This document shows positions 8,950 through 64,000 of a stretch of 64,000 bases of DNA, piece by piece (the first letter of the stretch is position 1; every line of letters starts with the position of its first letter). Made by a program: the position numbers and the translations under genes. This stretch comes from Terebella lapidaria (taxonomy: Eukaryota > Annelida > Polychaeta > Terebellida > Terebellidae). Location of the stretch: the NCBI GenBank assembly GCA_949152475.1, contig OX424555.1, forward strand, positions 16,262,868 to 16,326,867, written 5' to 3'. The notes under the pieces were generated by a model, which did no database searches, was not told the DNA's origin, and saw only the letters and a list, made by a program, of their open reading frames with translations.

Positions 8950-9892
8950 ATGGCAGATCTGACCTTCGAGTTGTTGGATGCCATATTCTTGCACAGGCAA
9001 GGGATACGCAACGGAAGATTTCTTGACATCAAAGCTGGGCGAGCCAAGTTTGCCAAACTATGGTCTGGAAGACATCATCCCTTGTACAGGGAACTTGAAG
9101 TTAGTGATGCACTGATGTTGGAACGAGTTCCTGAGGAACTGTTCCCGTTTGTGATGAATCAATCTTAGTGATGAGCCATCAACTTCTGAGGGAGCTGACT
9201 TTCGGCTGGAGGAGATAAATCGACAGGTACAGTACTGGCTGCCGAGCGTACCTTCCACACAGGATTGGAAATTGGCCTGCTGCAATTTTGATGAATTATC
9301 TAAATTAAGGAACATCATTTTCAAACAAATGGGAATTGAGGATCCAAAATTGAGATGTTCAAAATATGTCCAGAACATCGACGAGGGGATCAATGGCTTT
9401 AGAGCAGATTTGCGGGAGCAGCATTATCTGTCATCCCCAAATACTCCAGAGGTCCACAGGTCATTGGATGGCAAGGCGCTGGATTCAGAGTTGAAACATT
9501 TCTGCCAAAATGCTAGAGAGATTCGTGCTCATTATGTTCAATCCTTCCTGGAGTATGAGGCTGTGGCAGGAGAGGGGAAAGCAAGACCGCCTTCCTTCTC
9601 AGTTAGACCGCTGTTTGTGCACAACGAAGAACGTCTGAAATACACTGCCATTGAAAACGAGACAGTTGCAGAGATCAAGACACTGGTCGATGAAGGTATT
9701 GAGTCGATTGCAGACAATATTGTACGAGACGCTCTACGGAACACATGGACTGATGTAACAAAACCTTCAAGTAAATCGTCAAAACAGGTGTTGCTGCTTT
9801 TCTACTACGAACTGCATGTCTACATGGCATATGACCAAGCTGACAATCTAAATGACACAAGCAGTGATTTGGGCGATATTGAAGATTCATGA
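8950..9892 (+). pseudogene. Orphan single-exon gene with one frameshift
   Basis: The start MADLTFELLDAIF follows a good ATG context (GTTATGG). That frame runs to a stop after MNQS (about 9168). One base over, the frame continues without a break (LSDEPSTSEGAD, then QYWLPSVPSTQDWKLACCNF) and stays open to 9892, where it ends with an acidic tail (DLGDIEDS). Together these suggest a roughly 310-residue protein interrupted by one small indel near 9165. The composition is ordinary for a soluble, helix-rich protein with several charged segments. I see no signal peptide or membrane segment. I do not recognise the family. Poly(A) signals AATAAA follow at 9920 and 9957. It could be a host gene with a sequencing indel or a passenger ORF of the surrounding transposon debris. 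Confidence 0.6.
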
Positions 9893-13144: not shown

Positions 13145-13375
13145 AGAGTGGCTGGACGTTGAACATGTCCTGGTACATTGTCAAGATTTGGCTGACAATC
13201 GTCGCATGTTCTACGAGTGTCAGTCCATATACAAACGTTTCAAGGATTTTAATATTTATAAAATCCTCAAATTTCCTTCGGGAAATTGGGGTATATATTT
13301 ATGTTTAGACACATAAATTCCAGTCAACGCCTTCGAGTCTAGATCTAGTCATCAATTCTTCACCACTAAGTGGCT
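13145..13375 (+). mobile_element. 5' half of a TTC-tailed LINE copy split by another LINE
   Basis: This starts in the C-terminal tail coding part (GTGGCTGGACGTTGAACATG) and runs into the 3' UTR as far as TTCACCACTAA, where another LINE is inserted. The rest of the UTR resumes at 15770. Uninterrupted copies (for example 3300-3820) read straight through this point. Confidence 0.9.
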
Positions 13376-15774
13376 AAGTACCATTGAAAATTGTTCAAGT
13401 AGCCCGGGTGTTTTAGATTTTCCATTGACCGAAGAAGAGCTATCAACAGCCCTGAGAAAACTCAGAAGGGGTAAATCGAGCGGTATAGATTCGATCACAA
13501 ACGATATGCTACTTGATGGCGGATTATGTCTGCATCAGACAATTCTTCACATCTTTAACAAACTACTATCTGAAGGTTGTTACCCATCCTCTTGGCAGTC
13601 TAACATCATTGTTCCAATATTCAAATCCGGGGCAAAAACTGACCCCGACAATTATAGAGGAATTGCCATCTACAGTTGCTTGGGAAAACTATTTAGCTCA
13701 TTAATAAATAGCAGACTGGAATCCTTTCTGAAAACAAATAACATGATCTCAATTAATCAAAACGGCTTTAAAAAAGATCATCGTACGGAGGATAATATTT
13801 TCATCCTACAATCCCTGTACGACAAATACGTTAAATCAATGGGCAATAAATTATATGTTGCCTTTATTGACTTCCGTAAATTCTTCGATACAATTAATAG
13901 AGACTTCTTGTATTACAAGTTGCAGAAAATGGGCATAACCGGCAATGTATATAATGTTATCAAGTCGATGTATGCTTCCTGTTTTTACCATATCAAATGT
14001 GATGATGGAATCACAGACAAAATACGATCGTCTTCTGGTATGAAACAAGGTTGCAATTTGAACCCAGCGCTCTCTAATATATATCAAAATGATATACACG
14101 ACATCTTTGGTGATTCTTGTCACCCTGTATCTCTTGGTGCTCATAAATTCAACTCTCTGTCTTGGGCGGATGACCTTGTCCTTTTGTCGACCTCTCCAGC
14201 TGGTCTACAGAATTGCTTGGACGCTCTTTATAAGTATTGCTTTAAATGGGCTATTAATATTAATCCAGGTAAAACCAAATGTATGGTTATGTCGAAGGGC
14301 AAATGTAAACACTGCCCCACTTTTACTCTGAATGAGTCTGTACTGGAGAACACTAAGCAAACAACATATCTTGGTTTTGTGATAACTTCGAATATGAGTC
14401 ACAGTGCTATGATGGACGATAGGATCCTGAAAGCGAATCGTGCCTCCTTTGTTCTTCGAAAGGCCATCATGTCTTCCAATAATTCTAGTATAAATGTAAA
14501 TATTGCAATTAGTCTTTTCGACAAAATTATATCTCCAATCCTACTATATGGATGCAGTATATGGGGGATGCCTACCTCCAATAATTTAATATACTTAAAT
14601 GGTGTACAGGAAGGGGGAGACACCAGAGCTGCCACGAATAATGCTTTCTATAAAATTAGCGGGCAACATATCCAGTTTTGCTCGGCCAAACGCGTAGGAA
14701 AAATAGATATTAACACGCCGAGACCTATATTAGTTAATGTAGGACGCTTGCAAGACAAACTGTTACTACTCAACAACTCGCCATTGGATAACATCCACGT
14801 TGTAAATTACGATTCTCGCTCTGAGAAAATTGCTTACGAGAAAATGCATTCTAAATATCTTAAGTTCGTTTTAGGAGTCAATAAATGGTCTAGTAACTCG
14901 GCTGTCAGGGCTGAACTCGGAAGATTCCCTATATCTATCAAAGCAATGTCCTTGGGTGTAAAATATTGGCACAAGATTGCGTGCGGCAACACCCCGAATG
15001 CTCTCTTAGTAGCCGCCTATACTTCCACGAACGAGAGACCATCTGCGTGGTTACAGTCGATTGAGTACGTCATTAAAATGACTGGTATGAACTACGTGTG
15101 GGAAAATCCCCTATCTATAACAAACAAATACATTTACCACAAAATTAAGCATATACTTTGTGATCAATATGTACAAAACTTTTTTGCAAACCAGCCGTAT
15201 GATGCTTGCGGTTTGAATGGTATTAAGGATACATACATATTTAGTAACTACCTCTCTATCATTCAATCGCCATCGATGCGAAGCACATTCACAAAATTTA
15301 GAATAAGGAATATACACAAATATGTTCGAAACAGTGATATCAGTTGCCCCCTGTGTTCCTCAAATGTTAACAATGGCCTTCACCATGTATTTTTGCATTG
15401 TAAAACTGACAAAGTATATAATCTAAGAAACGGTTTTGACCATGATATGAAAAAACTCATAAAAAATTACGAACGTATGTCTGACAAAGAGAAGTTATTC
15501 ACCATTTTAGATCTAAGGACAGACAAATGTTGCAATAAAGAAAAGCATCAACAATTTATAAGGTTAGTAACTTCCTATATTAAAGCAATGCAGGTGATCC
15601 TAAAAGAGTAGGCCTTTATAACACCATCGGTGCTCATGGTCATGTCTGTAACATGTTCTCTCTGTATCATTTTTTATTTACACGTATCTCATTGTATAAT
15701 ATTTGTCTGTATGTTGGTTATTATGTAACCTGTACATTTACGCCAATAAACTTGATTGATTGATTGATTGATTG
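13376..15774 (+). mobile_element. RT-encoding LINE nested in an older LINE
   Basis: The element carries a 728-codon RT frame, a short 3' UTR with AATAAA at 15745, and a TTGA-repeat tail (five or so TTGA/TTGATTGA units). It interrupts a TTC-tailed LINE at a site duplicated as ACTAA on both sides. It is 5'-truncated just upstream of the RT: no endonuclease is present. It is the youngest event here, since its ORF is intact while its host copy is decayed. Confidence 0.9.
13425..15611 (+). CDS. LINE reverse transcriptase (5'-truncated ORF2)
   Basis: An uninterrupted 728-codon frame encodes a non-LTR retrotransposon RT. The order is LRRGKSSGIDSI (finger motif), FKSGAKTDPDNYRGIAI, the D-containing box A FIDFRKFFDTI, the template-grip box GMKQGCNLNPALSN, the catalytic box SWADDLVLLS, and then the thumb and a long C-terminal region ending in a Cys-rich block (ISCPLCSSN with HHVFLHC) that probably binds RNA. 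The active box reads WADD where most RTs have YADD or FADD, and box A reads KFFD rather than RAFD. The frame begins at TTG because the 5' part is missing, so no native start is visible. The clade is uncertain: it resembles CR1/L2-type elements, but a tree is needed. It may be transposition-incompetent for lack of an APE domain. Confidence 0.9.
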   Translation: MTEEELSTALRKLRRGKSSGIDSITNDMLLDGGLCLHQTILHIFNKLLSEGCYPSSWQSNIIVPIFKSGAKTDPDNYRGIAIYSCLGKLFSSLINSRLESFLKTNNMISINQNGFKKDHRTEDNIFILQSLYDKYVKSMGNKLYVAFIDFRKFFDTINRDFLYYKLQKMGITGNVYNVIKSMYASCFYHIKCDDGITDKIRSSSGMKQGCNLNPALSNIYQNDIHDIFGDSCHPVSLGAHKFNSLSWADDLVLLSTSPAGLQNCLDALYKYCFKWAININPGKTKCMVMSKGKCKHCPTFTLNESVLENTKQTTYLGFVITSNMSHSAMMDDRILKANRASFVLRKAIMSSNNSSINVNIAISLFDKIISPILLYGCSIWGMPTSNNLIYLNGVQEGGDTRAATNNAFYKISGQHIQFCSAKRVGKIDINTPRPILVNVGRLQDKLLLLNNSPLDNIHVVNYDSRSEKIAYEKMHSKYLKFVLGVNKWSSNSAVRAELGRFPISIKAMSLGVKYWHKIACGNTPNALLVAAYTSTNERPSAWLQSIEYVIKMTGMNYVWENPLSITNKYIYHKIKHILCDQYVQNFFANQPYDACGLNGIKDTYIFSNYLSIIQSPSMRSTFTKFRIRNIHKYVRNSDISCPLCSSNVNNGLHHVFLHCKTDKVYNLRNGFDHDMKKLIKNYERMSDKEKLFTILDLRTDKCCNKEKHQQFIRLVTSYIKAMQVILKE

Positions 15775-22566: not shown

Positions 22567-22741
22567 CATGATGGGTTTCAGCAATTCTGTTCTGTTGTTT
22601 GCTGGTGTATTGAAAACCATTGTACGTTACATTGTACGAAAACCATTGTCATTTATATAGATCTTACTCAGTCTCATCTTCAAATCCTCTGTGAAAGTAG
22701 GCAAAGTTTTTTTTCTAGAGCTTTCTTCCTGACAATATAGT

Positions 22742-23805
22742 TTACTGGGTATTGATTCCACGTCTATTCAACCCTTTGGATTTTCACAGTGGTTTTAATG
22801 ATGTTCAATTAAACTATCCAAATTGTAAGTTTATCTATACTGATGGTTCTAAGGATTGTAATAAAGTAGGCTGTGCCGCTGTCACCTCAGGGAAAACATA
22901 CAAACAACGTCTCCCTGATGTGTGTTCAGTGTACACAGCTGAACTGAAAGCAGTACTATTAGCACTATCCCACATCCGCCGGTCCGGAGAACTGGGTTTT
23001 GTAATTTGTTCAGATTCTCTATCAGCCCTTCAAGCTATAGAGAATCGTAATATTGACCATCCTCTACTTTTGGATATTTTGACTGAACATCAACGTATTT
23101 TTCAAATGCATAAAGTTGTAATATTTTGTTGGGTGCCCGGTCATGTGGACAATCCTGGGAATGAGCGTGCCGACAAGGCTGCCACGGCAGCTCTTGATCT
23201 GGACGTCACATTTTCCAGGGTGCCACATTCTGACTTCAAGCTGCTCATCCACACGTACTTGTACGCAGATGAGCAGGTTGATAACAAGTCACAAAAAGTT
23301 AAACAATCTCTTGGTTGTTGTACCGCACTAAACAAAATGTCCCGGCGTAATCAACTGGGTTACCTTTCTCAGGGTTACCTGTTCCATGGGGAGGAGGCCA
23401 ATTTGTGTGCCCTGTCGAGAGTGGCGGACGGTTGAGCATGTCCTGGTACATTGTCAAGATAGTGCTGACACTCGTCGCATGTCCTACGAGTGTCAGTCAA
23501 TATATGATGTTTTCAGTGATTTTGATATTTATAAAATCCTCAATTTCTTGCGGGAATTTTGGGTATACTTTTTTTTAGACATTTTGTCTACAACCCTAGT
23601 CAACTCATTTGGGTCTAGATCTAGTCATCAATACTTTCACCATTAATCTTGTAAGCTCTACCGTTTTTTTATTGTAAAACTTGCGGTGTTATCATTCTTG
23701 ATACTACTTTCATATCCTCGTTTGGCACTGAAATGGCCTTCTTGAGCCCAACGTGCGGTTAAACTTTATCGCTTCTTCTTCTTCTTCTTCTTCTTCTTCT
23801 TCATC
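22742..23805 (+). mobile_element. Longest TTC-tailed LINE copy (RNase H to 3' end)
   Basis: Contains the RNase H domain, a C-terminal Cys/His tail, the full 3' UTR and a tail of about ten TTC units. It is the reference for the truncated copies elsewhere. Presence of RNase H after the RT places it in the I/Tad/Jockey-related assemblage of non-LTR elements (for example I, Nimb, Loa or Tad-like). The RT and endonuclease are truncated away. Confidence 0.92.
22752..23435 (+). CDS. LINE ORF2 C-terminal part: RNase H
   Basis: The 227-codon frame encodes an RNase H type I domain that would degrade the RNA strand of the RNA-DNA hybrid. All four catalytic acids are visible: D in FIYTDGSKD (near residue 30), E in VYTAELKAVLLAL, D in VICSDSLSALQ, and the last D in GNERADKAA, next to the His of CWVPGHVDNPG. 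The first frame ends at 23435. The original C-terminus then continues in another frame at 23386-23646 with CREWRTVEHVLVHCQD, a Cys/His motif, so one frameshift separates RNase H from its tail. It is a 5'-truncated, probably dead copy; the first Met is arbitrary. Confidence 0.9.
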   Translation: MIPRLFNPLDFHSGFNDVQLNYPNCKFIYTDGSKDCNKVGCAAVTSGKTYKQRLPDVCSVYTAELKAVLLALSHIRRSGELGFVICSDSLSALQAIENRNIDHPLLLDILTEHQRIFQMHKVVIFCWVPGHVDNPGNERADKAATAALDLDVTFSRVPHSDFKLLIHTYLYADEQVDNKSQKVKQSLGCCTALNKMSRRNQLGYLSQGYLFHGEEANLCALSRVADG

Positions 23806-24092: not shown

Positions 24093-27000
24093 GATGTTGA
24101 CGACTACTTCCAGAAGGAGAGAGACTGGGCGACAGAACACGCCAGGTGCCTGAAGGATCTGTCTGAGGTGAGTCGTCACTCATACATAATTATTGCTGAT
24201 GCAAACGCATTTTTTTTAATCCAGTAATCTAAGTTCTAATACCTAGTGTTGTTTGGATTTTAATAGATGTTTATATGTAAGTCGTCTTGTCCATTAATTG
24301 TTTCAGAGCTATAATAATGTGATCTACTGTGAGCAACGTAAGTATAGCACTGTATTGTGAACGTGTTGCCGCGATGAATACTACTGTGGTGTGTATTTTG
24401 TTCAGACCACACTTTGATATCTATGACCAGAGTGATAATTGTTCACGTACATTTGTGGTCATCAAGGAATTTCCGGAGCCTATGCACATCTGTCTACTGC
24501 TTTGAACCTCGGCGGTGGTTATGATGATGACCATTCCATCAAAACCAACACGTATGTGTATAGTAATAGAGCATGTTTTATTATGCAACGAACATCATCT
24601 ACTAGTATTTGGAATTATAATTGGAATGGTTTGGATGGTGTCCGTGAGTGAGTCAGTGATTGAATGAATCCCCAAAGTAATAATGCCTTATGTTTCTGCA
24701 CACCAGGGTACTTGTACGATTCAGTGAAGCCATTGAAGACGCCAAGGTGAGTATACCGTGTGATCCTATAACTGTGTCATCCTCTTTTCGAAACTTATCT
24801 CGAGAATAGGCATATAATCATCCCAACATATTACGTTGGCAGCATGGATGCGATGTTGACGTTACAAATGATGAAAACACGCTCGGTTTCCATCTGGATC
24901 TTGCTGCACGCTACGCCGAGGCTCTGAAGGTGAAAATTTTGTACTCGAAAACACAGCAAATTTGCAGTTCTCCCCCATTATCCCCATTATCTTCTCCCCC
25001 ATTATCTATATTCGTATTACCTGTGCATTTCCATGATTTTGCTGACATCCGTAATCTGTTCGGTCAATGTATTATATTTACCCATATTGGTATTTATATC
25101 AAATTCCGGAAATTGAGACACACTTCTATTTCTGTAACTTTCTTTCCATTTTGTGATTATACCTGTTTCCTACGTACATTATAACATTTCAAATATAGTT
25201 TTAATATCTGTTGGTACTGGAATAATGTTGTTGAGCCAATAAAGGCCGCTGGATATATGACTCGACCTATTACCGTTTAGAACAAGACTCTGATGATGCC
25301 AATGTAAAACTTGGCGAACGCTTTTGAAACAGAAATAGCCCAATCACGTGCAAAAACGTGCACTATATCACACAAGGCATGATGTCGTACACAGGAGATG
25401 CTGTTCCAGCGCACTTGTCTGATGGTGAATTACGAGGAATCGAATCGGGCGCTGGACAAGGCTAAACCCAACAAACGTGCAGAGGTGAGATCAAGCGCGT
25501 TCATTCATCTTATAATCAGTATTTGTCATTGAGTGCTATATACCGATTATATTGCAACTGAATACATAGCGTCACTTTTAAATGTCTCGATAGGCCTACC
25601 TGCAAAATATATATCTACACAAATTGCTTATACGGTCATTCGTATTCATCAGCAAGCGTGCCCTTGACGGAAACTGCCGACCTGCACAGATTGTTATGTA
25701 TCGATTAATTTCATATGCCATTTGTATCGTCTTAGCACAGTTATCTCTGATGTTGAAAATTATTGACATGTGACGCGACCACACCCAGTTTTCGAGTATA
25801 CCCACACACTGCTTGTTCACATGTTCCCCAAAACCGAGAAACAACAATGTAACATGTTGAATAATCAAAGATGAATGCGGATTAATAAATATTAACGTAC
25901 AGAAAAATGTTGAAACGTGTATCGTGGACATGTGCACTAGGATTTCTGCTACTAGAATTGATGATGTTGACCCGAGCGTTGCAATGAGCATCTATGTTGA
26001 TTACACAATTTGGTATACGTATGAATCCCTGTACGGCGGATGTGTTGGTCCCTGTACAGGAGTTGACCGAAGACCGTGTACCGCGTACGAACACAACACC
26101 GCTCGAGGCAGTTTCCTGGCTATGACGCGAACTGCATGCAATCAGGCGACAATAGCGCTTGGTGTGCCGGGCCATATCTAACACACGGCACGGCTTGTGA
26201 TTGTTGTCGTTATACTGTCGCGCCGTCATCGCCGGTTGTAATTTGGTTTGATTGGACATTGGTGTATGTCTGACATACCTGTAATTAGCACGGTGACGCG
26301 TGGATACGGAATGTATCGCCGCCCTTTCCTGCCCGGGGCACTTCCTTGTCATGTCGTATTGATTTTCCCTAGATGATTGGATGGATACATTTTCATCTGT
26401 GTGGGAAGGCAATACTAGTAACCATCCACATGGCTGCTGCGGAGTAAATGGCTGAATCATGACGGCAGTGCACCTGTACAGAGCACAAGACGACATGAGA
26501 GTGATAGTAATGACATATAGGTGAGGACAGTGTACGACACAGTGTTGTTGGAGACGTTGTTACCACAGTGTTCGAGAGAGGAGAACACACTGTGACGAGA
26601 GGATGACAGACTTGACCAGTGCGGATGACAGTTTGTTATCGGTAGCCGTGACGAGCAGCACACCGGGAATCATGTCCTCGCCGGACCCCACGGATTATGT
26701 GGTGCCACCTCGCACTATCGCAGGACTCCCTGTCACAACCTTCTCGTATATCTTTCTTGCAGTGGGCGGCACTGCTCCCATCCTCTTCATCATCGTGGTA
26801 GTCATCTCGATGAAGTGCTACTCGTGGAGGAAGTTACGCCGTTATCGCAGGTACGCAGCCCAGCTACAAGCCACGAAGGACATCTGGGAGTTCGAACGTA
26901 ATATCCAGAACGGCAAAAACGGTAATCACGACAACGTATTCGTCGAAGTTCCCAGTTTGAGTGCTTCGGAGTTTTACGCGACTTCCAGCGAAGACTTCCG

Positions 27001-29596
27001 GGACGTAGAATTCCGTCCATCATCATTGTATAGAAAAGGTAAAAGCGAGGTGGACCTGCGGAAGATCTCGAATGAATCCTCGCAGTCTTTGAGTGCCAAG
27101 CTGAGTTACAGTAATCCGAACGTCTATTTTAAAGAGACGCCTTTGCTTTTGATAAACGGTTTGTACGACAGCAATTCTAATTCGGATGCAAATAAAAACT
27201 TTCCTGGCAAGAATTTCAGTCACCTGGGGAACGGCTTCTCGCGAGGCGCACTTGGACTAGACAGACACTCCAGTAAACTGAGTGGTAAGATTCCTGAAAT
27301 CAAACAGTTGGAAAACGGCGGCAACGCTGTATCTGAAAATGTTGACAAAACCGGAATAATCGTTTACGAAGTGAACAAGCGAAATGGAGCGACTTTAGCT
27401 CCTGAAGCTACCAAGCAGGAATTAGACGGGACACTGAGTCTACACAGACGGCGTCACCTCCGTAACGGCGGGGGCAGCAACATTAGTCTTAGCAGCGAGG
27501 AGGCTCGGGCCCTTGCATGTTTCGATCACATCTACGAGGGAATTGACTCGAGTCCGACTGGCACTGGAAGAAAGTCAGGTCGATCAACCTTGAACGTTCC
27601 TAAGAAACCCGGTGATTCTCAAGGACACGTCAACCATGGGTTCGAGGGTGACGATGCGTGTTCAACTGTGATTTGTAGGTGCCGCACTGAGCAAACAGAC
27701 AATAGCAGACAACTCCACGTAATAAATCAACAGAAGCAATCTGACCGAGACAATGGTTCTGATCCTCCTGAACCTTGTATCAGATGTGCTGGCAGAGAGC
27801 AGCTAAGTCTCGTGCAAACGTGTTCTTATTCGTTGATAAATGACGGAAGCACGGAAAATCAAACATCTGTTGATAAGGACACTGGTGATTGTGCGATAGA
27901 AGGTCAATGCCAGAAATGTTCAAAGAATACGGACAACGGCGTGTCGACTTTGACAAACACAGTCCTCATTTCTCCTACAAACGGAACGCTGGACATTCAC
28001 GTGTCAAAGCCAAACCACATGGAAGAAAATTCACCATCCGCAAAGGACGGAAAAGTTCTAAGCAATGGTCATTTTGCCCAAAATGACAAAGATCATACGA
28101 CCACTGATCCTATACAAAGGAAAAGCACTTGCGATGACTCTGATGGAAATGAACACGCTGGACCATTAGTCACATCTGATCCCGAATACCCCCGGTCCTG
28201 GCTCTATCGATCGTACAAACAATAATTGCCTTCTTCGTCTGGATAGGTTATAGTGACTGTGTTCGTGCATGTGTCCTAATCTGTTTCTATATATTAGACA
28301 CACTATGAACGTGTGATATGCACAACTAAAGATGACGATGATATCATGTGCTCCACTGTACTTCGAATGCTAGTTGTCTACACCATGAATACGTTCTGAA
28401 ATAAATAATTATTCCAAACAACTCCATAATTCAGATACAAACGCGGTTTGCAATTCACTCTTAGTCATTGCTCACCACATCACATTACATATTCACTGGT
28501 ACAGGTACAAAGTTATGCATGAATTTATGCTGGCGCCAAAGGCGTAATGACTGGTCAAGTCAGTTATGTCGTGTTATGTTGGCAGGCTGAAGACAATAAG
28601 CTGGCAGCCGAGAGAGCTTTTGATGAATGTTCGGATGTGGCCAGAAAAGAGGTATTCACTCTCAGTTATATGGATTTTCTTATGTTTAGGTTGCCGAACC
28701 TTCAGTCCGATAACCTATAAGGACGGCGTTGCGTCCATCATCCGTCTGGCCATCCGTCCTTGATCGTCCTTCCATCCGGCATGAACAATTTTATCTTTGG
28801 AGTCTACGATAAGATTTTTTTTTTAGTTTTCAGAAAAATACCTATAAATATTCCAAGTGGGAGGTATTTTTTTTATGTTCGCATTTCAGAATGGTGACAT
28901 TTAGTTCACGAAAAAACACCAAATTTTGGACCTTGATGGCCATTTCTCCAAAAACTGTTTAGACAATTTTGAGATATTTGTTCCAAAATATGCTAACTGA
29001 ATTGTTGTGGAAAAAAGGACCATTCAGACGTTGACAGATTAACACTATAGATACTTCCGGTAGCATGGGTTAAGTTTATATGTTTCAAGTGAAAGTTTTC
29101 AACAACAAAAAATACATGTAATTAATTGTATCGTGATTAAAATAATGATTGAGATAAGGTTGCAATATTTTTGGTGCTTCCTTTTGCACGCTGATCTAAT
29201 ACCGTGTTTATTCACAAATAGCCTCCAGATATCGCACCGAATATTGTTATTGGAATGGTATTCTATGTTAGTGAATAATTTGCTAATAACCTCGGGTATT
29301 ATTATCTGATGTGCGCCTGCACTAATTGCTTGTTATCCAAGCTAATGTATCATCATGTAATATTACAACATCTATTACTGGAGTGGGCGTATGGATTATT
29401 ATAGACATGTTGACATAACGCTAATAGACATGATGCTAATACCCTTCACGCACAGATACAGCAGTACAAGCGAGATAGGGTTCTGGCCATGCAGAAAGCG
29501 CTGACGCTTCACGCCGAGGCCAAGATCAAAACGGCCCGAGATAGCTACGCCCTGCTCGCTAAGTCGCTGCTACACTTCCAACAGATGGACGTCTGA
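24093..29596 (+). CDS. Sorting nexin, SNX5/6/32-type, BAR-domain exons
   Basis: Eight exons join in phase and encode 204 residues to a TGA: 24093-24167, 24307-24337, 24467-24551, 24707-24746, 24843-24929, 25395-25484, 28586-28651 and 29456-29596. All have AG acceptors and GT donors. The product is a C-terminal BAR domain: DVDDYFQKERDWATEHARC, then RFSEAIEDAK, YEESNRALDKAKP, KLAAERAFDECSDVARKE, QQYKRDRVLAMQKAL and AKIKTARDSYALLAKSLL. YEESNRALDKAK and the FxxxxKRxRVxAxxK-like helix align by eye with SNX5/SNX6/SNX32. SNX-BAR proteins bind endosomal membranes as dimers and act in retromer/ESCPE-1 type sorting. The PX domain and start should lie upstream but were not found, so the gene is 5'-partial. 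The 31-nt exon (24307) is the least certain, but its phase fits exactly. The 3.1-kb sixth intron holds another gene. Confidence 0.85.
26603..28225 (+). CDS. Single-pass membrane protein of unknown family (nested gene)
   Basis: A 540-codon uninterrupted frame starts at ATG 26603. It has a Ser/Thr-rich N-terminus of about 45 residues, one strong membrane helix at residues 47-70 (FSYIFLAVGGTAPILFIIVV), then a basic stop-transfer (WRKLRRYRRY), and a long polar tail. The tail is rich in Ser, Asn, Asp and Gly, with a Cys-containing stretch near residues 350-450 (CRCRTEQ, CIRCAGRE, CQKCSKN). There is no cleavable signal peptide, so type III orientation with a cytoplasmic tail is the simplest topology. 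Several YxxL/NPxY-like tyrosines are present, but no known domain. It lies inside an SNX intron, same strand, and has its own AATAAA at 28400. It could be a single-exon gene or the large terminal exon of a gene with a 5' UTR exon. I do not recognise it. Confidence 0.8.
   Translation: MTDLTSADDSLLSVAVTSSTPGIMSSPDPTDYVVPPRTIAGLPVTTFSYIFLAVGGTAPILFIIVVVISMKCYSWRKLRRYRRYAAQLQATKDIWEFERNIQNGKNGNHDNVFVEVPSLSASEFYATSSEDFRDVEFRPSSLYRKGKSEVDLRKISNESSQSLSAKLSYSNPNVYFKETPLLLINGLYDSNSNSDANKNFPGKNFSHLGNGFSRGALGLDRHSSKLSGKIPEIKQLENGGNAVSENVDKTGIIVYEVNKRNGATLAPEATKQELDGTLSLHRRRHLRNGGGSNISLSSEEARALACFDHIYEGIDSSPTGTGRKSGRSTLNVPKKPGDSQGHVNHGFEGDDACSTVICRCRTEQTDNSRQLHVINQQKQSDRDNGSDPPEPCIRCAGREQLSLVQTCSYSLINDGSTENQTSVDKDTGDCAIEGQCQKCSKNTDNGVSTLTNTVLISPTNGTLDIHVSKPNHMEENSPSAKDGKVLSNGHFAQNDKDHTTTDPIQRKSTCDDSDGNEHAGPLVTSDPEYPRSWLYRSYKQ
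28400..28405 (+). terminator. Poly(A) signal of the nested membrane-protein gene
   Basis: AATAAA 175 bp after the stop at 28225 and still upstream of the next SNX exon. It supports an independent transcript within the intron. Confidence 0.55.
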
Positions 29597-33757: not shown

Positions 33758-36700
33758 CTAGCGGCGGATGAGCCTCATTGTGTAGGACACCTGGGACCAG
33801 GGCTCGCGACAGCAGCGTCTGTTGATGACGCGGCGGGCGCTCTCGTTGCCCGTGATGCCCCACACCTTGTTCGTGTAGCCAGACAAGTCAAAGCCGTCCC
33901 CGCGGATGTAGATGTCCAGGTCGTAGCCGTTGTACATCCAGGAGCCGAAGCGGAAGGGACACTCCCACGTGGCGTTGGGCATGCGCGGCCGTATGCCGTG
34001 CCTACAGTTTCAAAACTTTCGGAGCGCGCAGTGACACTCCCACTGCGCGCCCCTAGAGTATCAGAGCGCGCAGTGAAATCTCGGAGCGTGCTGGGACATT
34101 TGGGAGCGCGCAGTGAGAACTGGAAACACTCCCACTGCGCAGAGCGCGCAGTGAAATCTCGGAGCGTGCTGGGACATTTGGGAGCGCGCAGTGAGAACTG
34201 GAAACACTCCCACTGCGCGCTCCGAGAGTCTCAGAGCGCGCAGTGAAATCTCATAGCGTGCTGGGACATTTGGGAGCGCGCAGTGAGAACTCTCAGACCG
34301 TGCTGGTGAATCTTGGATTTCACTGCGCGCTCCCAGACTTCCTGACACGCTCCGAGATTTCACTGCGCGCTCCCAGATAATTTCACACGCTCTCACATGT
34401 CGCTGCGCACTCCCAGACTTACCAACACGCTCTGAGATTTCACTGCGCGCTCCCAGATTCACCAGCACACTCTGACAGTTCTCACTGCGCGCTCCCAAAT
34501 GTCCCAGCACGCTCGGAGATTTCACTGCGCGCTCTGAGACTCTCGGAGCGCGCAGTGGGAGTGTCACTGCGCGCTCCGAAAGATTTGAAACTGTCGGCAC
34601 GGCATACGGCCGGTGGCAGTGGACGGCAAGCCACATCGGGACCACGCGCTGGACCTTACCGTCCTGACTGATCGTCACCTTGGCGTGGTCGTCCATCCGG
34701 ATCTTTGGGTCCAGACTGCGAGGATAGGAGAGGGAGGGGGGGGGGGTGAACGGTACTGTAAGATTCGTGTATGTGCTCGATCCAATGTTCCAATATATTG
34801 AGCATATATTGATCACACTAAAAGCGAGTGGAACAAAGTTAACATTCAATATGTACGAGATTTGATATAAGACCTACAAAGTATATCACTCGAGAAGAAA
34901 ATGCATGTTCGGACTGATCAGCAGCGTGATTTTCTGAACTCAGACTGCTGGAGTAGGATGGATATCATTGAACAAGTACGTCATGAAAATACGTTTCGAA
35001 ACAAAGCGGGAACACATCCGTAAGATTTTCTTCACTATCCGTATCAGTCTTCGATTAATTCAAGAGCATATTAAGCATTGTCCGCTTAATTACGCCCGTT
35101 GTCAGTTTTTTAGTGTCTGCAGATAAGGTGAAATTGTACTCTATCACATGATAAACACTTATTTCGTAGGCCTTGCCACTAGATTCCACCATGTTCACAA
35201 CTGACACTCAAGTCTCCACTTGTGCAGACCCAGGTGTTTTGCTCCAGATGAGCTTATCCGAGAAGTACTAGTATTTAACGTTTAGAATCTTTCATTGCTC
35301 ATATTTCAACTCACACTTCAACATTCATTACCATTAGGCGTACACCACAAACGGTTCAGTCTGGAACTGAAAGGGATTTACTAGTATAGCCTGGCGCTGT
35401 GCACGTGTTCTAACGTTACATATATTGTGGGTTTCGATGCACGTGTTTTTATCCGAATCCGGAAAAGTCGATCCGGGGCCTAATTTCCCGGACGACAATG
35501 TGAATGCTTTCAAATGAGCGAGAATTATTTTATCTGATGGGAATACGGGTGACGAAAATCGGGACATTGCATATATGTCTCCCCGACTCAAGGCTATCGC
35601 ATGGTAGATTGATAAATTGATACTTATGCTATACAAAATAGGCAGGAAATAAGTTACTGTGTTAGGTTACGACAAGACAGACGTTCAACCTCAGCTTCAG
35701 CTATCTATCACATTCACAGCCAATCAGAATTGCTTAGTTCGAATGGATACAGTCTACATATTATCTCAAACGGGAAACAAGTCAGGAAATGAATTACCTG
35801 TTGTATAACTTGATATCCGGCGTCCAGATTCTGTGCGGAGACATGATTATTCTGTTCTGTGGGTACTGTCCAGGTTTCCAGGCTAACCTCGGGTCGTACC
35901 ATTCCTGTTTTCCAGGTAATTAAAACTAATATACGAGTGTATACAATATTGTTGATAACTCAGACTATCACGTGAATGAATTTAATGTAAATGGTGATAG
36001 AGGAAAAATTAGCCCAAGGTCTAAGAGAGGTTACCGGACAAAATACATTTTAGATATTAGCCTTTTGCCCAGTGATCTTGAAAATAAAAACCATAAATGA
36101 ATTCAAGGCCTTGAAATATTCAACAAACATATCATTTCTAGTATGTCCACAATAGATTCCTAAGCTGTAAAGTTCATAATAAGTGAGATATTAGCCATTC
36201 TGTGATGTGTCCTCGAAAATGAGGTCAAAGCTCAAGTTCAAGGTCATGAAAATTTTCAGCATATATCATTTCCTCTATATTCGCAAACATTCCTAAGCTG
36301 TAAAGTTGATGATAACCGAGATATTAGCAATTTTGTTCTCTGACCTTGAAAATGGGATCATAGGTCAAATTCTAGATACCGAAATATTCAGCATACATCA
36401 TTTCCTATATGTTCACTATGGACTCCTAAGCTGTAAATTCAATAATAAGTGAGATATAAGCCATTTTGTCCTGTGACCTTGAAAATAAGGTGACTGACCT
36501 TGAAATTTAGGTAAAAGGTCAAATTCAAGGTCGTGAGAATATTCAGAATATATCATTTCCTATACTATATGTTCACAATTGATTCCTAAGCTGTAAAGTC
36601 GATAATAAGCAAGTCAAGATATTAGCCATTTTTGTCCTGTAGCCTTGAAAATGAGGTCAAATGTCAAATTCAAGGTCACGAGAATATTCGGTATATATCA

Positions 36701-38672
36701 TTTCCTATATGTTCACAATTGATTCCTAAGCTGTAAAGTCGAGAATAAGCGAGATATTAGCCATTTTGTCCTTTGACCTTGAAACTGAGGTCAACGGTCA
36801 AATTCAAGGTCACGAGAATATTCAGCATATATCATTTCCTATATGTTCACAATTGATTCCTAAGCTGTAAAGTCGATAATAAGCATGAGATAATAGCCAT
36901 TTTGTCATGTGACCTTGAAAATGAGGTCAAAGGTCAAATTCAAGGTCACGAGAATATTCAGCATATGTGACTTCCTATACATCCACAATTGATTCCTAGT
37001 CTCTAATCTCAATATTAAGTGAGATATTAGGCATAATGTGTCCCATTATAAAGCATAGGAGAATTTAACATGGGAACGTCCCATTTGGGCCGAGTTTGGG
37101 CCCAAAATGGCCCACTTCGAGCGATTCAAGGGCAACGAAACTTATACATGTCACAGGGGTACATATGAGGAGTGTTATGCGTCAAAAAGAAAAAAAGTTA
37201 CCGAACAGAATTTGAGAAAACAACCGTCAAAGTCCAAAATTGACCGTTTTTCATCAAAAATGGCCGCCATTTTGAAATAATTGCGAAAATAAAAAAAATA
37301 AAAAATACCTCCTTCTTGAAATATTTTTAGGCATTTTTGTGCAAAATTTCAGAAAGATTCGACCGTAAACTTTAAAGATATAATTGTCTACGGACGGACG
37401 ACGGACGCAACGCCATGCCAATAGGTTATCGGACCAAAGGGTCGGTAACCTAAAAACAAATGGAGATGCAATTATAATACTCATAGAAAATGCGTTGCCT
37501 ATCGCTCACCATGTAGAGCCAGACGCCGGCTTTGATGGACGCCTCGAGTGTCCCCTCGTTCATGCTGATGATGTCGTTCAGCATGACGTTCAGGGTTACT
37601 ACGGTAACGTTACCGCCCTCAGTGGGACGCTTAGTGGCGTCATAACCACTCATCAGCTGCATACTCAGGCGCTTGGACCTCTACAAATAGCAACAAGAAA
37701 ATGCAGCTAACTGCGGGGGACGACATTAGAGCTCGAGCACATCATCAGCACCACGACAGTATATTATGATGAAAAACATAGGCCTACTTCATTCATATCC
37801 CTAATAAGTAAAAATTTATTTTGAACTCAATGTAACAGATAGATCTACGCCTACTAAAATGGTATTTCATTTAAAAATAAAATAAAAAAAATATTGAAAA
37901 CCATGAGAAATATCTGCATCTGATATCATGATACATATGCCTACTGGGCGAATTGAAAGGCCAGTTTAAAATAAAAATTCGCATCCCCGCATGGAACACC
38001 TTAATTGTCATGTGATACAATACGTCAAATTACGGTAAATTTAGCCGTGGCGTCGCAGACGTATCATCGTGTTTACTTCATCATAGCGCCAGAGAATGTC
38101 ACACGCAAGATGATGTATGCATGCACGTATTGCTGCACAGAAAATTGTGTGTTCCATAATATGCGTCATTGCGGTAAAATTTGCTTTGCATTCTGGGAAC
38201 GTCAATTTCCATCGGCTCCGCCATTTTGGACGTTTTTGGATAATTTGAGGATCTTACGTTATTTTCTCAATCCTAACACATCGATTTATGCATTATACAT
38301 CTGTGGAATATTGGAAGTTTGCCATCAATTCGACAGATTTTATGTCAAAGACGAAGAAAATCCTCATTTGGAGTAGGTGTCTGAAGGTTTACCTGCCAAA
38401 ACGGGCGTCGATAGTTTGGCATGAAACCTCCATGAAAAAGTCAGCACATAGACATGTAGAGGGTTGGGGGCTTCGCCCCCAACGCTCTAATGTCAAAAAT
38501 GCAACAGATGAAGTATTTAATCATTATCACGTGTGAAGTAGGCTGGCCAGAATAATAGAATCATTTTTAATGCATTAATTTCACATACCTTTGTTTTGAG
38601 CTTTGCCGCCAATATATATAGTGGCAAGGATACAAGCAGCAGAAGTCTCAAGAGTGAGAATACTTTAGCCAT
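33758..38672 (-). CDS. Acetylcholine-binding-protein-like secreted Cys-loop ligand-binding domain
   Basis: Five minus-strand exons join in phase to 237 codons: 38672-38589 (signal peptide MAKVFSLLRLLLLVSLPLY), 37680-37510, 35904-35798, 34715-34608 and 34001-33758. Nicotinic-receptor landmarks appear in order: MQLMSGYDATKRP (N-terminal helix), VWLYM then EWYDPRLAW (loop D), HRIWTPDIKLYN (loop A with its Tyr), AKVTISQDGKV, the first Cys of the Cys-loop in WLAVHC and the second in NATWEC, FGSWMYNGYDL (loop B Trp), and vicinal Cys in RRCCREPW (loop C). A TAG follows SYTMRLIRR, exactly where a receptor would enter M1, so no pore is encoded. Known molluscan AChBPs are about 230-residue precursors of this plan. 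The loop C tyrosines are replaced (R before CC, W after), so ligand preference may differ. The fourth intron is unusual (next entry). Confidence 0.85.
33985..34613. repeat. Inverted-repeat minisatellite (foldback) in the Cys-loop intron
   Basis: About 630 bp built from units such as GAGCGCGCAGTGAAATCTC, GGAGCGTGCTGGGACATTT and GGAGCGCGCAGTGAGAAC. The left half runs in one orientation and the right half in the reverse complement, with the switch near 34300. The outermost arms also mirror: CGGCCGTATGCCGTGCC at 33987 and GGCACGGCATACGGCCG at 34595. Within the receptor-like gene, the arm supplies a donor (GTATGC at 34607) and an acceptor (CTGTAG ending 34002) that keep the frame. Confidence 0.9.
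36090..37040. repeat. Tandem repeat of about 125-135 bp in intron 2 of the AChBP-like gene
   Basis: About seven copies of a unit containing ATCATTTCCTATATGTTCAC, GATTCCTAAGCTGTAAAG, GAGATATTAGCCATTTTGTC, TGACCTTGAAAATGAGG and GTCAAATTCAAGGTCACGAG. Conservation is highest at 36530-36960. Each unit carries converging TGACCTTG and CAAGGTCA half sites. Confidence 0.92.
37990..38540. other. Intron 1 of the AChBP-like gene, with a small hairpin
   Basis: Includes a perfect 8-bp-arm hairpin, GTTGGGGG-CTTCG-CCCCCAAC, at about 38464-38484. Plus-strand frames here are short and unsupported. Confidence 0.5.
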
Positions 38673-43191: not shown

Positions 43192-44509
43192 TTAAATGTG
43201 ATTGGCTCCCGACTGCCGATAGATGTCCTGCGTTGCTGCGTGTACACGTCGTATCCTACTACAGCAGGCCACAGCCCTGAGTAACCTTCGCAGTTCTGTG
43301 TTGAATTCTGAGTTCCTGATCGTGTAAATGAAAGGATTAACTGTGTGATTGAATCCGACGATAGTTATCGCCATGTCAAAGATGTCCCTTCTGATGTACA
43401 GATCAGTGCCGAATGCCAGCAGGCAGGAAGAGAATCCCAAGGGGCATGTACAAGATGACAAACGCCATGGCAACTATCAAGTTGGACACGGCAAGACGAC
43501 GGTCCTCTTTCACGGATCGTCCCATGAAATATCTAGGCACGGTCGAGCGTATGTCTGCTGACTGGAGGGTCATAGACAGATGACCCTCTGGAACCATAGA
43601 TCGAGAGGATATTGATATGTTTTGCGAAAGACTTGACGAGCAATGGGGTCGAAACATATCACTTAGGTTGTCCGGGTTGGGTGGAGGTTCGGTCGTGATC
43701 CCGATAGGCACGGTTTGACACGCGCGTGCGAAGTAGGCAGTGTAGTCTGCCACCTTCTTGTTCAGTTGATGAAGCTTGATGAAGATTCTTGCGTAGCTAA
43801 CGACAGTAACAACCACGTTTAGCACATAAAGAACTACCACGTAATAGGTGGTTCGTATACCGCTTTGAACCGATACAACTGTTGAGTTATCATCATTCCT
43901 GACATCGATCAATTGAACCAATGATGCCTCGGTATTTGTTTCTGTTAAAGGAATAGGCGTTTGAAGATCCGATTCTCTGGTAATAACGATGCCACACCAA
44001 ATCATCATGAAACGTCCATGGGATGCGATTGTGATACCCATCGCGGACAGCGAGAGAATCAGAGTCATCGCGATCGTACAGACGTACATCCTTAATGGCA
44101 CGACATAGGCTGGATACAACACATTCCAACTGCGGATAACTGCAATGTTCGCGAGCACTATCATGTTGGACGATGTTGTGAAGCTCAAAATCTTGGCCAT
44201 CACACAGGAGGCACTCATCAGGGTTTGGTCCGGTGTGTCCGAGTCATATGTCGCTGTGTCCAAGAATCTTTTGACCATTAAAAACAGGCATCCGAGGAAG
44301 TCGTATGCTGCTAAGCTGACATGTAGGGAATTATCCCAAGTACGAAGACGCTCGTTTTTATAGACAATCGTCCAAACCAATGCATTTCCACACAATCCGA
44401 CAATACAACCACCAAGTTGTAGAATTGTTGAGAAAATAACGAAACTGTACATCTTGACATCAGTTGTATACGGTGTACGTGTGGTATTAACAACGTCCGT
44501 GCGCGACAC
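43192..44509 (-). CDS. Class A (rhodopsin-like) GPCR with one frameshift in TM6
   Basis: Minus strand, seven-helix layout: TM1 GGCIVGLCGNALVWTIVY (GN), TM2 HVSLAAYDFLGCLFL (LAxxD), a Cys in SASCVMAK at the start of TM3, TM3 ending NIAVIRSWNV (DRY replaced by IRSW), TM4, an ECL2 Cys in MIWCGIV, TM5 YYVVVLYVLNVVVTVV, a long third loop, TM6 NLIVAMAFVILYMPLG, and TM7 ending NHTVNPFIYTIRN (NPxxY). The first frame stops at 43403, shortly after TM6. TM7 is in another frame open over 43192-43473, so one small indel lies at about 43403-43450. The first in-frame ATG is at 44452; an upstream segment with NTT (glycosylation site) may start in another exon. Ligand unknown. The rest is clean, so this is either a recent pseudogene or a sequence error. 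Confidence 0.82.
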
Positions 44510-45437
44510 TATCGAGGCAATGTCACATCATAATCCTTTCCCTTGCAACGAACACTTGTTAGTAGGCATCGGGTACCGGGCATACTCCCTCCAGAGAAGT
44601 GCCATTACCAACGCACTGACGTCGGTAATGTTTGTGCGAGTAAGTTATAAACACTCAGCCATACTGTTAATACTTGCTGTCACCGCCTTCATCCCGATAC
44701 GGCTTGTGTCGTGGAATGACTGTGATCTTGGTTATCACCAATCAATATTTACCTGAACACCAGGTGCCTTACACAAGGGTATAAGTGTTTATTATCATAA
44801 TGTTGATGTATATTGTTGTTCTTCTTCACACAGTGTGATGTATTATATTAATAGAACACATTTCCACACCTTTGACAATGAGTGTAGACTAAATCACCCA
44901 AGGTGAAAGTGACAGTTTTGTTCAGCGATAATTAAGACGTTGTGACTGTATCATTAGGATGTGTATATTAGCCATCAACATCCCCAACATAAACTTAGGC
45001 TGATTAGTACCGTTCTATTGACGTCACCCCTGGCTCATCAACAACCTGTTATTCAATGCGAGTGTCAAGCATTACACGTGTTATAGCATATTATTACACA
45101 TCTAACTGATACTGAACCGTAACGTGCACGGTTCAACGATTCCGATATTGTCGTGTGTCACCAAACAATATCAGCCCACCCGGTCCGATATGTGCCCTGC
45201 TGGTCCGATATGAGTTCGCAATGACGTTTCTATAATAAATTGAATAACAGACCGATGCCGCGTCATACGCTCCCAGCATGCACAGTGACTTCATAATACC
45301 GAATTAGAATGTTTTCTTTCGAACAATTGACCGGAACAGATGTAATGTTATATTTGAACAAATTTCCCAACAATTAAATCTAATGGTTTCTAGTCTATTG
45401 ACTGGTAGTTAAGTTTCGATATGATGTGTAATAAGCA
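44510..45437. other. Flank of GPCR, no gene seen
   Basis: GGTCCGATATG motifs at 45180-45215 and ATAACAGACCGATGCCGCG at 45245 resemble the interior of the palindrome at 45440 and may be an older copy. Confidence 0.5.
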
Positions 45438-60469: not shown

Positions 60470-60722
60470 TAGGGGATTTCCAAGACGTTTTATTCGTGAA
60501 TAGAATGTTTTAGTCGCGAATAGAACGTTTTATTCGCGAATAGAACGTTTTATTTGTGAATAGAACGTTTTATTCGCAAATAGAATAGTTTTATTCGCGA
60601 ATAGAACGTTTTATTGGTGAATAGAATGTTTTATTCGCAAATAGAACGTTTTATTCGTGAATAGAACGTTTTATTCGCAAATAGAATAGTTTTATTCGCG
60701 AATAGAACGTTTTATTCGTGAA
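60470..60722. repeat. 20-bp tandem array with TTCGCGAA core
   Basis: About twelve copies of GAACGTTTTATTCGCGAATA with variants TTCGTGAA and TTCGCAAA. Every unit is nearly self-complementary around TTCGCGAA. The array ends exactly at the start of LINE-derived sequence at 60723. Confidence 0.95.
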
Positions 60723-60728
60723 AAATAA

Positions 60729-61220
60729 CCCAGCCCAGCCCCAGCTTCCCAGCATCCACAGAACAGTGGCGCCCCTGACACCGTGTCCGCAGATGTCTCA
60801 CGGAATTTATCACGGCCTTCAGGCATCCAAAAGACGATATCTTCTGTTCCCGATAATACCCGTGTTGCAGCGTCAGAGGGACCGCTCCGCACCCAAGTTC
60901 TGCAGCCGCGGACGTCTGCTTCTACTTCTGTTTCCCCTCATGTCGTCCTGCGCTCTGCCAAGTCTGTACTCGGACCACGCCATGGCGAGGTACTGGCACT
61001 TGTTAGGCCCCGGCCTGGCGGCACTCCTACGAGACGATACAATCAGATACGTGATCATCCAGCGTCTCAAAGGGATTTCGTTGCCACCCCTGTGTCCTCT
61101 CGTGATTCTAAGAGGAAGGACATATCCCCTCCCAGTGACGCCGACAAACAGCCTGACAAGAAACCTTCGATGTCTAAAAGTCTCAAGGACTATTTTCCTC
61201 CTTCCTCTAATATGTGCTGA
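60729..61220 (+). CDS. C-terminal part of LINE ORF1
   Basis: A plus-strand frame is open from the element's 5' edge to a TGA at 61220. The composition is Ser/Pro/Arg/Lys-rich. It starts PSPAPASQHP and ends SKRKDISPPSDADKQ, then KKPSMSKSLKDYFPPSS. This resembles the disordered basic tail of an RNA-binding LINE ORF1, in a different frame from ORF2. The N-terminal part (commonly PHD, RRM/zinc-knuckle or esterase) is lost by truncation, and no start is native. Confidence 0.6.
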   Translation, partial: PSPAPASQHPQNSGAPDTVSADVSRNLSRPSGIQKTISSVPDNTRVAASEGPLRTQVLQPRTSASTSVSPHVVLRSAKSVLGPRHGEVLALVRPRPGGTPTRRYNQIRDHPASQRDFVATPVSSRDSKRKDISPPSDADKQPDKKPSMSKSLKDYFPPSSNMC

Positions 61221-64000
61221 TATCACATGTTGTATTGATGTTTCCATTACATATTGTCATCTATCAGTCCATGTTTTCACTTACATGTATGTGGCACGGT
61301 ATTCAGCAGTTGACCAATTAGTTGGCATTGTCATTCCCCAATTGCATATGTCTAATATTGCTATCGGTGCTATTACAGTGTTTCGTTTCGTATGTATACA
61401 TAATGTTCCTTTTGCTCATGTCGAGTTAACATCTTGTTTCCTTGAAGTCTACTTTTTCACTCATTTGTTAATTCACGTGCTTACTTGTGCTAATCTTTTT
61501 GTTGTTCTTATAGATTTCCGAGCAATAATCATGCATAACGGGCTCCATTTTGCTGATGACAATTCAGTGTCGTCATTCCTATATGTTTATGTATTCAATC
61601 AATTATCAAAATACGTAGCAATTGTAAGATTGCTTGATGTTGCCATTTTTCTCGTATGTTCTTGTATTTTTGCTTTTGGTGTCAGCATCATGCCATATAA
61701 TATATTCAAGCATAATGTTCTCTCTGTTGATATATGGTTCAGTCGAATATTGAACTTCTTGAATATTTTCGGGTCTGAGTGGACTTACTTCCAACGTGAT
61801 ACATGTTCATGTATATTATCATTTCGCAGATTGGCATATACCCACAAAAACATATTTCCCAGAATGCCTTATCAGAAATTTCATGAAAGCATTGGTGGCC
61901 GTACTTGTACATTGGTCTCATGTTATAGCGACAATCATATGTTTTGTTTAATCGTGAGAACTATTCTACTCCTCCTGGCAGGAGATATTGAGCTGAACCC
62001 TGGTCCCATTCAGCAACATAAAATGCCTGGGAATAGCCTTAATGTATGCCATTTGAATATACAAAGTATCAAGCGCAATGCTGATAAGATGAACCAATTA
62101 TCTCTGCAGCTTGGTGGTGTGTATGACATCATCACGTTATCGGAGACTTGGCTCGAACCTGGCATTCCGAATGACGAATATAAAATTCAGGGTTATCATC
62201 CCATTTTCCGGCGAGACCGGCCTAACAATATCCCTGGAGGAGGCGTTGCTGTCTGGGTATCTTGTGACCTAGTGGCACGAAGACGTTATGATCTGGAGTT
62301 AGCCGATATCGAGGCGATGTGGCTTGAAGTGAGGTCTCACAACAATGTATTTTTACTGAGCACCATCTATCGTCCTCCCTCTTCCAAAATTTCATTTTAG
62401 GATAATTTGCAAGTCATGTTGGATAACACGAAACACACTGGTATTCAACATGTGATGTTAATTGGTGACTTTAATTCCGATGATAACACCCGAGAAGGTG
62501 TGAATTTCAATACTTTCATTAATGCGAATCAGTTGGCTTCACACATAAATGAACCAACACGCATTACACAGAGAACTGCTACCTGCCTAGATCGGATTAT
62601 TAGCAACATGACTGATTTTGTGAAAGATATGAGAGTCCTTGCTCCTTTACACAATAATGATCATTGCACAATAGGTATAACGCTGAATTTCACTGTGAAG
62701 AGAAGCCGGTGTTATACACGTGTAATGTGGGATTACAACCGAGCGGATGTCACTGGTCTTTGCGCTCACCTTGCCGATGTTCCATGGAACGCTATCTGTG
62801 ACAATTATGTGGACATAGATAAAGCGACAGAGGCATGGACAGAAACCATGACGGTCGCAGCCAAACAATACATACCAAACAGAATTGTCTGTGTACGTCG
62901 CAATGACAAACCTTGGTACTCTACCGGCTTGAGACGACTGAGACGCAAAGTTCACAGAAGTCATAAACGAGCCAAAACTTCGAAAACAGATGCCAATTGG
63001 TCGGCATACCGTAAACTTCGTAATGAATATATACAACAATGTCGTGACGCCCAGGATAGATATGACACAGAACAAATCAGAAAATTATCTGACTGCAACT
63101 TTTCATCGAATGACTATTGGAAGTTGTTCAAGTCTGTGTTGGGTGTCAGTGTTAATCAGTCATGTCCTGCATTACACGATGCTGATCACATCGTTAATGA
63201 GCCTCTTGACAAATGTAACTTGTTCAATGATATATTTTTATCGAAATCCACAATAGATGATTCATCGGGCTATTTACCAGATTTCGATCAATCTGATAGT
63301 GCCCCATCGTTATCATCGATCGATATAACTGAGCGTTAAATCACTGAACAGTTATCTTTGTTGAATCCTTCCAAAGCCTATGGTCCGGATGGAATTGGTC
63401 CTAGGTTGCTGAGGATGACAAAACATGTTATCCTTGAACCGTTACTAAACATTTTCAACACCAGTTTGAAACAAAAGAAAATGCCGGCCATATGGAAGCG
63501 TGCAAACGTAATACCTATTTATAAGAAAGGGGACCGCAGTGATCCTTCTAACTATAGACCGGTCTCCCTGCTAAATACCACTTCAAAGGTATTTGAGAAA
63601 ATCATTTTAAAATATATTTTCAATCATTTACGCGACATTTCTGCTCTATCTAAGTGGCAGTCAGGTTTTATGCCAGGTTCTTCAACCATGTGCCAACTAC
63701 TTGAGGTATATCATAAATTCTGCCAACAAGTGGACAATGGCAAAGAAGTACGTGTAGTATTCCTTGATATCAGTAGAGCCTTTGATCGTGTCTGGCACAA
63801 AGGTCTGTTGTATAAACTAAAGAGAGTCGGTATCCAGGGTGAAGTCCTCTGCTGGCTGAGTGATTACTTGGATCACCGACAACAACGTGTAAGCTTAGAT
63901 GGTGTAAACTCCCAATGGGGAACCATCTCCGCTGGCGTGCCCCAAGGTTCTATTTTGGGTCCGTTGTTATTTTTGATATTTATTAATGACATCACTGAGG
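61221..64000 (+). pseudogene. LINE ORF2: leader, 2A-like, APE endonuclease, RT, two nonsense codons
   Basis: One frame runs to the window end, broken only by TAG at 62398-62400 and TAA at 63337-63339. About 250 hydrophobic residues precede LLLLAGDIELNPGP, an exact DxExNPGP-type 2A motif (last Pro at 62005-62007) that in related LINEs makes ribosomes skip a peptide bond. The APE domain then shows HLNIQSI (Asn), SETWL (Glu), IGDFNSDD (Asp/Asn) and NNDHCTI (Asp/His). The RT shows PSKAYGPDGIGP, NYRPVSLLN, FLDISRAFDRVWH and GVPQGSILGP, and the YADD box lies beyond the window. The endonuclease nicks target DNA and the RT copies element RNA there. The stops make this copy inactive unless read through. 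Confidence 0.88.
61978..62007 (+). promoter_or_regulatory. 2A-like ribosome-skipping motif
   Basis: The codons spell A-G-D-I-E-L-N-P-G-P. The D-[VI]-E-x-N-P-G-P signature is complete, and the preceding residues (TILLLL) are hydrophobic or helix-forming, as in active 2A sequences. Separation would occur between the last Gly and Pro, releasing the leader from the APE-RT polyprotein. Activity is inferred from the motif. Confidence 0.85.

Follow-up and report, generated by a model that had tools for sequence, protein, structure and literature searches.

Acetylcholine-binding proteins (AChBPs) consist of the ligand-binding domain (LBD) of nicotinic acetylcholine receptors (nAChRs) and have no transmembrane domain. 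The first AChBPs known came from molluscs and a single annelid; a putative one from a spider was described later (PMC4569296). LBD-only nAChR gene models, common in lophotrochozoans, were listed by Jiao et al. (2019; PMC6896357), whose Table 1 gives 34 such models for Capitella, 4-19 for each mollusc listed and 5-6 for two cnidarians; these entries are gene models, and the term AChBP is absent from the main text. According to these two sources, the group is less rare than assumed in the preliminary description of the DNA treated here, in which it was called a small one known mainly from molluscs and an annelid. In this work, a stretch of 64,000 nucleotides from the annelid Terebella lapidaria (GCA_949152475.1, contig OX424555.1, positions 16,262,868 to 16,326,867 of the forward strand; called the window in the following) was analyzed. 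It contains a gene on the minus strand which, with a probability of about 0.78, encodes a secreted, receptor-domain-only Cys-loop protein of the AChBP kind and is interrupted by a recent transposon.

The window gene shares the domain plan of the LBD-only gene models mentioned above. Like the AChBP of Capitella teleta (4afg, 4afh, 4b5d), it comes from an annelid, encodes an LBD only, has vicinal cysteines and carries a Cys-loop without FPFD. However, the identity between the two is low, the Capitella Cys-loop has 8 residues (as aligned with the paralog L041) compared with 11 in the window gene, and the tyrosine positions of loop C are occupied by Arg and Trp in the latter. The molluscan AChBPs of Lymnaea, Aplysia and Biomphalaria are likewise LBD only, and those of Lymnaea and Aplysia also have a Cys-loop without FPFD, but these two retain both loop C tyrosines, which the window gene does not. 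A potential N-glycan site in the Cys-loop, as found here, is described for Biomphalaria AChBP2 (PMC3423370); in the same source, intron 1 is described as the only part of the Biomphalaria exon pattern that resembles non-molluscan species. Human nAChR alpha-7 differs from the window gene by its FPFD motif, its membrane segments M1-M4 and its aromatic loop C.

Gene structure and the stop codon before M1

The gene is composed of three exons followed by one long exon (Table 1). Exons 1-3 have GT/AG borders and phases of 0, 0 and 2, in agreement with the matching phases described earlier, whereas the count of five exons did not hold, the presumed intron 4 being a 617-bp transposon (see below). The reading frame is open in every exon, and the G + C content at third codon positions (GC3) is 0.78 compared with 0.398 for the window, the introns lying at 0.35-0.41. 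As the single Pfam domain of the product, Neur_chan_LBD (PF02931) was found at positions 2-215 of 216, scoring 121.3 bits with the five-exon splicing and 123.1 bits with the insert omitted (cut-off 26 bits), which amounts to full-length homology to the nicotinic LBD. Judged by GC3 and the LBD frame, this is a real gene and not a chance frame. The donor of exon 1 agrees with 8 of 9 consensus positions, and an Rfam scan of the window gave nothing at gathering scores.

The full Cys-loop LBD claimed in the preliminary description is thus borne out by the Pfam score, and the signal peptide-like leader by hydropathy only, with a hydrophobicity peak from residue 7. The TAG stop codon was also confirmed at the place indicated there, directly after the last LBD strand, where receptors start M1. 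No M1 remnant was found in a three-frame reading of the 358 bases 3′ of the TAG. A tblastn search of the whole window with the membrane part of alpha-7 found no M1-M4: the best match had an E of 0.89, and no match downstream of the gene on the minus strand was credible. When 30 other LBD loci of the genome were searched with this query as a control, 26 were matched at E ≤ 0.01. Of the 30 Pfam-found LBD loci, 26 show by eye an M1 in the same open frame a short distance beyond the matching position, while the frame ends before M1 in the remaining four (L016, L028, L030, L035). With a TAG before M1 and no M1-M4 found in the window, the gene follows the transmembrane domain-free plan of AChBPs and differs from nAChR channel subunits, which have the M1-M4 channel domain.

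LBD-only paralogs and receptors in the genome

With 150 of 496 candidates scored, at least 183 matches to PF02931 were counted in the genome. When the genome was searched with the protein of the window gene, 93 matches were obtained at E ≤ 1, five of them being the gene's own exons. Thirteen LBD-only paralogs were seen (L041, L044, L045, L046, L047, L048, L049, L050, L055, L056, L088, L089, and L090), giving 14 LBD-only genes including the window gene. Because of the TAG at the M1 boundary, the M1-M4 segments not found in the window and these 13 further LBD-only genes, the plan of a secreted AChBP proposed earlier is supported.

The Cys-loops of the LBD-only paralogs are varied and degenerate. 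An FPxD-type motif, defined by the pattern [FYM]P[FMLYI][DE] in the Cys-loop, occurs in none of the 14 LBD-only genes and is kept in 27 of 27 read loci whose frame runs into M1, a contrast that describes the loci seen and not a genome-wide rate. The M1-bearing loci comprise 17 loci together with L029 and L031 and with L009, L021, L027, L032, L034, L036, L037, and L038, the last three being near-copies. Five loci (L016, L028, L030, L035, L091) have an FPxD-type motif but no M1 in the same frame and enter neither count; the lines without the motif at L029-, L035+, L041+, L044+, and L059+ were discarded as chance pattern matches. The window gene has lost the coupling motif that the M1-bearing paralogs read have kept, and its Cys-loop corresponds to that of AChBPs in this respect. 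It also has the vicinal cysteines of AChBP loop C, as stated before; the pair (C95 C96) is invariant in 10 of 10 aligned sequences including the window gene and is missing in L088, which is outside the alignment.

Two trees were calculated. Tree 1 is based on exons 3 and 4 (37 rows, 156 columns) and includes the Capitella and Aplysia AChBPs. Here, a branch with a support of 86/82 separates the two AChBPs and 10 of the 14 LBD-only genes from 25 M1-type rows, the window gene is joined with L041 (98/91), and a six-gene LBD-only clade is recovered (95/87). For tree 2 (39 rows, 141 columns), the Cys-loop columns were removed and the Lymnaea AChBP and two receptors were added; for this tree and for the Cys-loop alignment, the row of L031, whose upstream part is misjoined in tree 1, was omitted and six rows were shortened by seven residues. 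The window gene remains with L041 (96/88) and within the LBD-only clade of six genes (96/89), not beside a receptor. Its kinship inside this clade is well supported, while a single origin of the LBD-only genes with the known AChBPs is not shown by the trees. A truncated pseudogene of a neighboring receptor, as considered in the preliminary description, was ruled out, the nearest other match of the protein search (E ≤ 1) on the contig being more than 6 Mb away and the closest kin being LBD-only. Among the paralogs, the best solved homologue is the Capitella AChBP 4afg for L041 (E 3.8e-18), an Aplysia-AChBP-type chimera for L046 (1.1e-25) and the alpha-2 receptor for L055 (9.1e-31), with the Capitella AChBP in third place.

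Two further observations concern the paralogs. L045 (C14:27036930), L047 (C14:26814408), and L049 (C1:25977459) have small residues followed by a short, hydrophobic C-terminal end that resembles a glycosylphosphatidylinositol-anchor signal, so these LBD proteins may be anchored rather than free. In intron 3 of L067/L041 (G000 C1:9678000-9680097), there is a long 40-nt tandem array whose unit resembles the exon 3 end with the donor (WVPDIRLYNR); the splice donor of L041 itself appears to be repeated many times within it.

The element in exon 4 and alternative explanations

The element (Table 1) lies within the Cys-loop codons of one exon and is flanked by GGCC on both sides. It is largely self-complementary, with arms of 137 nt at 96%, and a hairpin of -498 kcal/mol (z -27) is predicted for the RNA of 641 nt around it. 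In the 761.6-Mb genome, 46 occurrences of its 24-nt end were counted, compared with none of the reversed control pattern. A perfect 4-bp duplication is present at the window copy and at 15 of 16 other pairs of ends, namely 8 of 9 fetched pairs, all three full copies (L004, L005, L008) and all four further copies; the three full copies were found with a pattern including the left GGCC, so that an independent test is given by the right side of these copies alone. The exceptional pair L069/L070 probably represents two elements. When the flanks are joined, they are in frame and yield a Cys-loop of 11 residues, equal to that of the uninterrupted paralog L041, which has a single open frame across the position of the element. 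Five exons with an ordinary fourth intron are ruled out by the terminal inverted repeats (TIRs), the target duplication, the sibling copies and the single open frame of L041.

The insertion is very young, because the copy L004 on contig C2 is identical to the window element at 615 of 617 positions, with one 14-nt gap and 2 substitutions. A non-autonomous DNA transposon entered the Cys-loop codons of this haplotype very recently. The allele with the element is most likely disrupted; splicing with five extra residues is less likely. L004 itself (G000 C2:28513413-28514043) sits in a joined 125-aa open frame that by eye resembles the frame at 9158-9889 of the window, probably a repeat gene; the longer side of the joined frame has no Pfam match.

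It is unlikely, but worth weighing, that the element is spliced as a new intron and that the gene works. The donor GTATGC would then begin with the first two bases of the element and the acceptor CTGTAG would end 11 bases before its end, so that 15 nt (11 of the element and 4 of the duplication) remain in the product as five extra Cys-loop residues. GT and AG are indeed present and the product is in frame; Introners adding 12 bp are reported from Aureococcus (Gozashti et al., 2022; PMC9860276), and the putative spider AChBP has a Cys-loop of 16 residues (PMC4569296), the length of the would-be product. However, the donor agrees with only 4 of 9 consensus positions, a poorer fit than the 7-8 of the three native donors, the acceptor contains 6 pyrimidines in 15 positions compared with 8-14 in the native acceptors, and both sites lie within the stem of the long predicted hairpin. 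The AG is already present in the sibling L004 and was therefore not selected at this site. Counting the window copy, 8 ends in the genome carry this TAG variant, and four more copies of it, with both flanks read, are by eye in no evident exon. Splicing thus has a published precedent but is the less likely fate here.

The birth of an annelid intron in progress, in which a young transposon in an AChBP-type Cys-loop is spliced via its own terminal GT and an AG near its other end, is unlikely; in that case, the five added residues would be tolerated as the loop is free to vary once the protein is uncoupled from a channel. As in Introners, the TIRs and the target-site duplication of a DNA transposon are present. 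An Introner family was considered but not established, since most of the flanks read are non-coding by eye (the few copies read include the four of four TAG-variant copies in no evident exon) and the pieces of joined frames have no Pfam matches. In detail, a joined frame of more than 100 aa was found only for L004 among L004, L005, and L008, and for the L004, C7, C11, and C16 copies, one-sided pieces taken from the longest joined frame gave no Pfam match at 0.01.

Several points weigh against a gene of the AChBP kind. The best PDB chain for the window gene is human alpha-7 (E 4.6e-26), and the Capitella AChBP is not in the best 60 of the 244 distinct PDB sequences that match at 0.001. In tree 2, the split of the LBD-only genes and three AChBPs falls to 57/83 and is present in 54% of the bootstrap trees, and both trees cover 10 of the 14 LBD-only genes seen. 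Neither of the two sets of loci compared is random, as the LBD-only set was chosen by similarity to the window gene and the M1-bearing set consists mostly of the best Pfam matches. In addition, the interrupted Cys-loop exon and the altered loop C would fit an old truncated receptor copy, further broken by the transposon. Such a pseudogene is a minor possibility, considering that every exon is open at a GC3 of 0.78, that there is no M1 remnant over the 358 bases 3′ of the TAG, that a clade of LBD-only genes shares the same plan, and that the break is recent given the few differences between the element and its sibling. That the LBD belongs to a transmembrane receptor with overlooked M1-M4 exons is highly improbable: alpha-7 is the best solved homologue, and the frame with the Cys-loop runs without M1 in four of 30 receptor loci and in L091, but M1 follows in the same open frame in the large majority, the membrane-part search gave nothing credible, and the FPxD-type motif is missing.

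Table 1. Features of the LBD-only gene and its insertion, in window coordinates.
Feature	Position	Strand	Characteristics
Exon 1	38589..38672	-	Start codon, hydrophobic signal-peptide-like leader, donor AAG/gtatgt
Exon 2	37510..37680	-	Basic N-terminal segment (furin-like RSKR), region of the N-terminal helix, conserved Trp in loop D
Exon 3	35798..35904	-	W.D..L.W ... WTPDI.LYN (loop A); matching exon 3 in paralog L041
Exon 4, 5′ part	34608..34715	-	Through first half of Cys-loop; ends with the left GGCC duplication (4 bases, 34611-34608)
617-bp TIR transposable element inside exon 4	33991..34607	-	GTATGCCGTGCC...GGCACGGCATAC; intron 4 of the preliminary description
4-bp target-site duplication, right-hand GGCC	33987..33990	-	
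Exon 4, 3′ part	33758..33986	-	Remaining Cys-loop, loop B (GSW), loop C and its vicinal Cys, final strand, stop codon TAG at 33760-33758

Binding pocket, proposed function and genomic context

In the alignment from the PDB search, the pocket has kept the Tyr of loop A, the Trp of loop B and the Trp of loop D, whereas the first Tyr of loop C is replaced by Arg and the second by Trp. The replacement of the loop C aromatic residues reported earlier is therefore correct for the first position only, as Trp is still aromatic. The five-residue aromatic box for acetylcholine is incomplete. Published AChBPs also vary in this box, but more mildly, as with Y92F and Y193F in Biomphalaria (PMC3423370). Among the 14 LBD-only genes, the first loop C position is Tyr in 11, Asp in L041 and Arg in the window gene. 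Sequons are located at N52, N161 (inside the Cys-loop), and N204, and the pI is 9.8 from residue 24 onward, the assumed cleavage point.

The protein is predicted to be secreted and glycosylated at the three sequons. By analogy with AChBPs, it would form a soluble pentamer whose subunit interfaces bind a small molecule, and its role would be that of a scavenger or buffer and not of a channel. Because Arg replaces the first loop C Tyr beside the aromatic cage, weak or no acetylcholine binding is expected, and perhaps another, possibly anionic, ligand is bound. A glycan at N161 in the Cys-loop would fit a protein that is not docked onto a channel.

Besides the gene described, the window contains a single-exon frame of a rhodopsin-type G protein-coupled receptor at 43403-44527 on the minus strand (PF00001, E 2.5e-8). 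On the plus strand, the frames at 13317-15608, 22719-23432, and 60706-63999 match reverse transcriptase, RNase H and, weakly and below the cut-off, endonuclease; they probably represent elements of the long interspersed nuclear element (LINE) type. A 566-aa open frame at 26525-28225 (plus strand) contains a single hydrophobic segment close to the start and gave no Pfam match at 0.01. Elsewhere in the genome, the mitochondrial contig shows the order nad3-nad2-cox1-cox2-atp8-cox3 on one strand with TGA inside cox1 (cox1 by Pfam, the others by eye). Annelid mitochondrial genes are described as located on one strand, with nad3 between nad1 and nad2 (sipunculan mitogenome paper, PMC2639372), so that the mitochondrial order points to an annelid. 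A second COX1-like match with TGA codons (G000 C417:44633-46450) is either a nuclear copy or a second mitochondrial genome.

Three details are new to us: the altered loop C, the number of LBD-only genes in a single annelid and the recent insertion. AChBPs are standard soluble models for the pharmacology of nicotinic receptors, but little is known of their natural function in animals other than molluscs. In T. lapidaria, at least 14 LBD-only genes, some with changes in loop C and three with possible membrane-anchor tails, exist beside a large set of true receptors. This set allows one to ask what such proteins bind and whether their origin is a single one. If polymorphic, the transposon in the Cys-loop exon would be a natural knock-out or a newborn intron.

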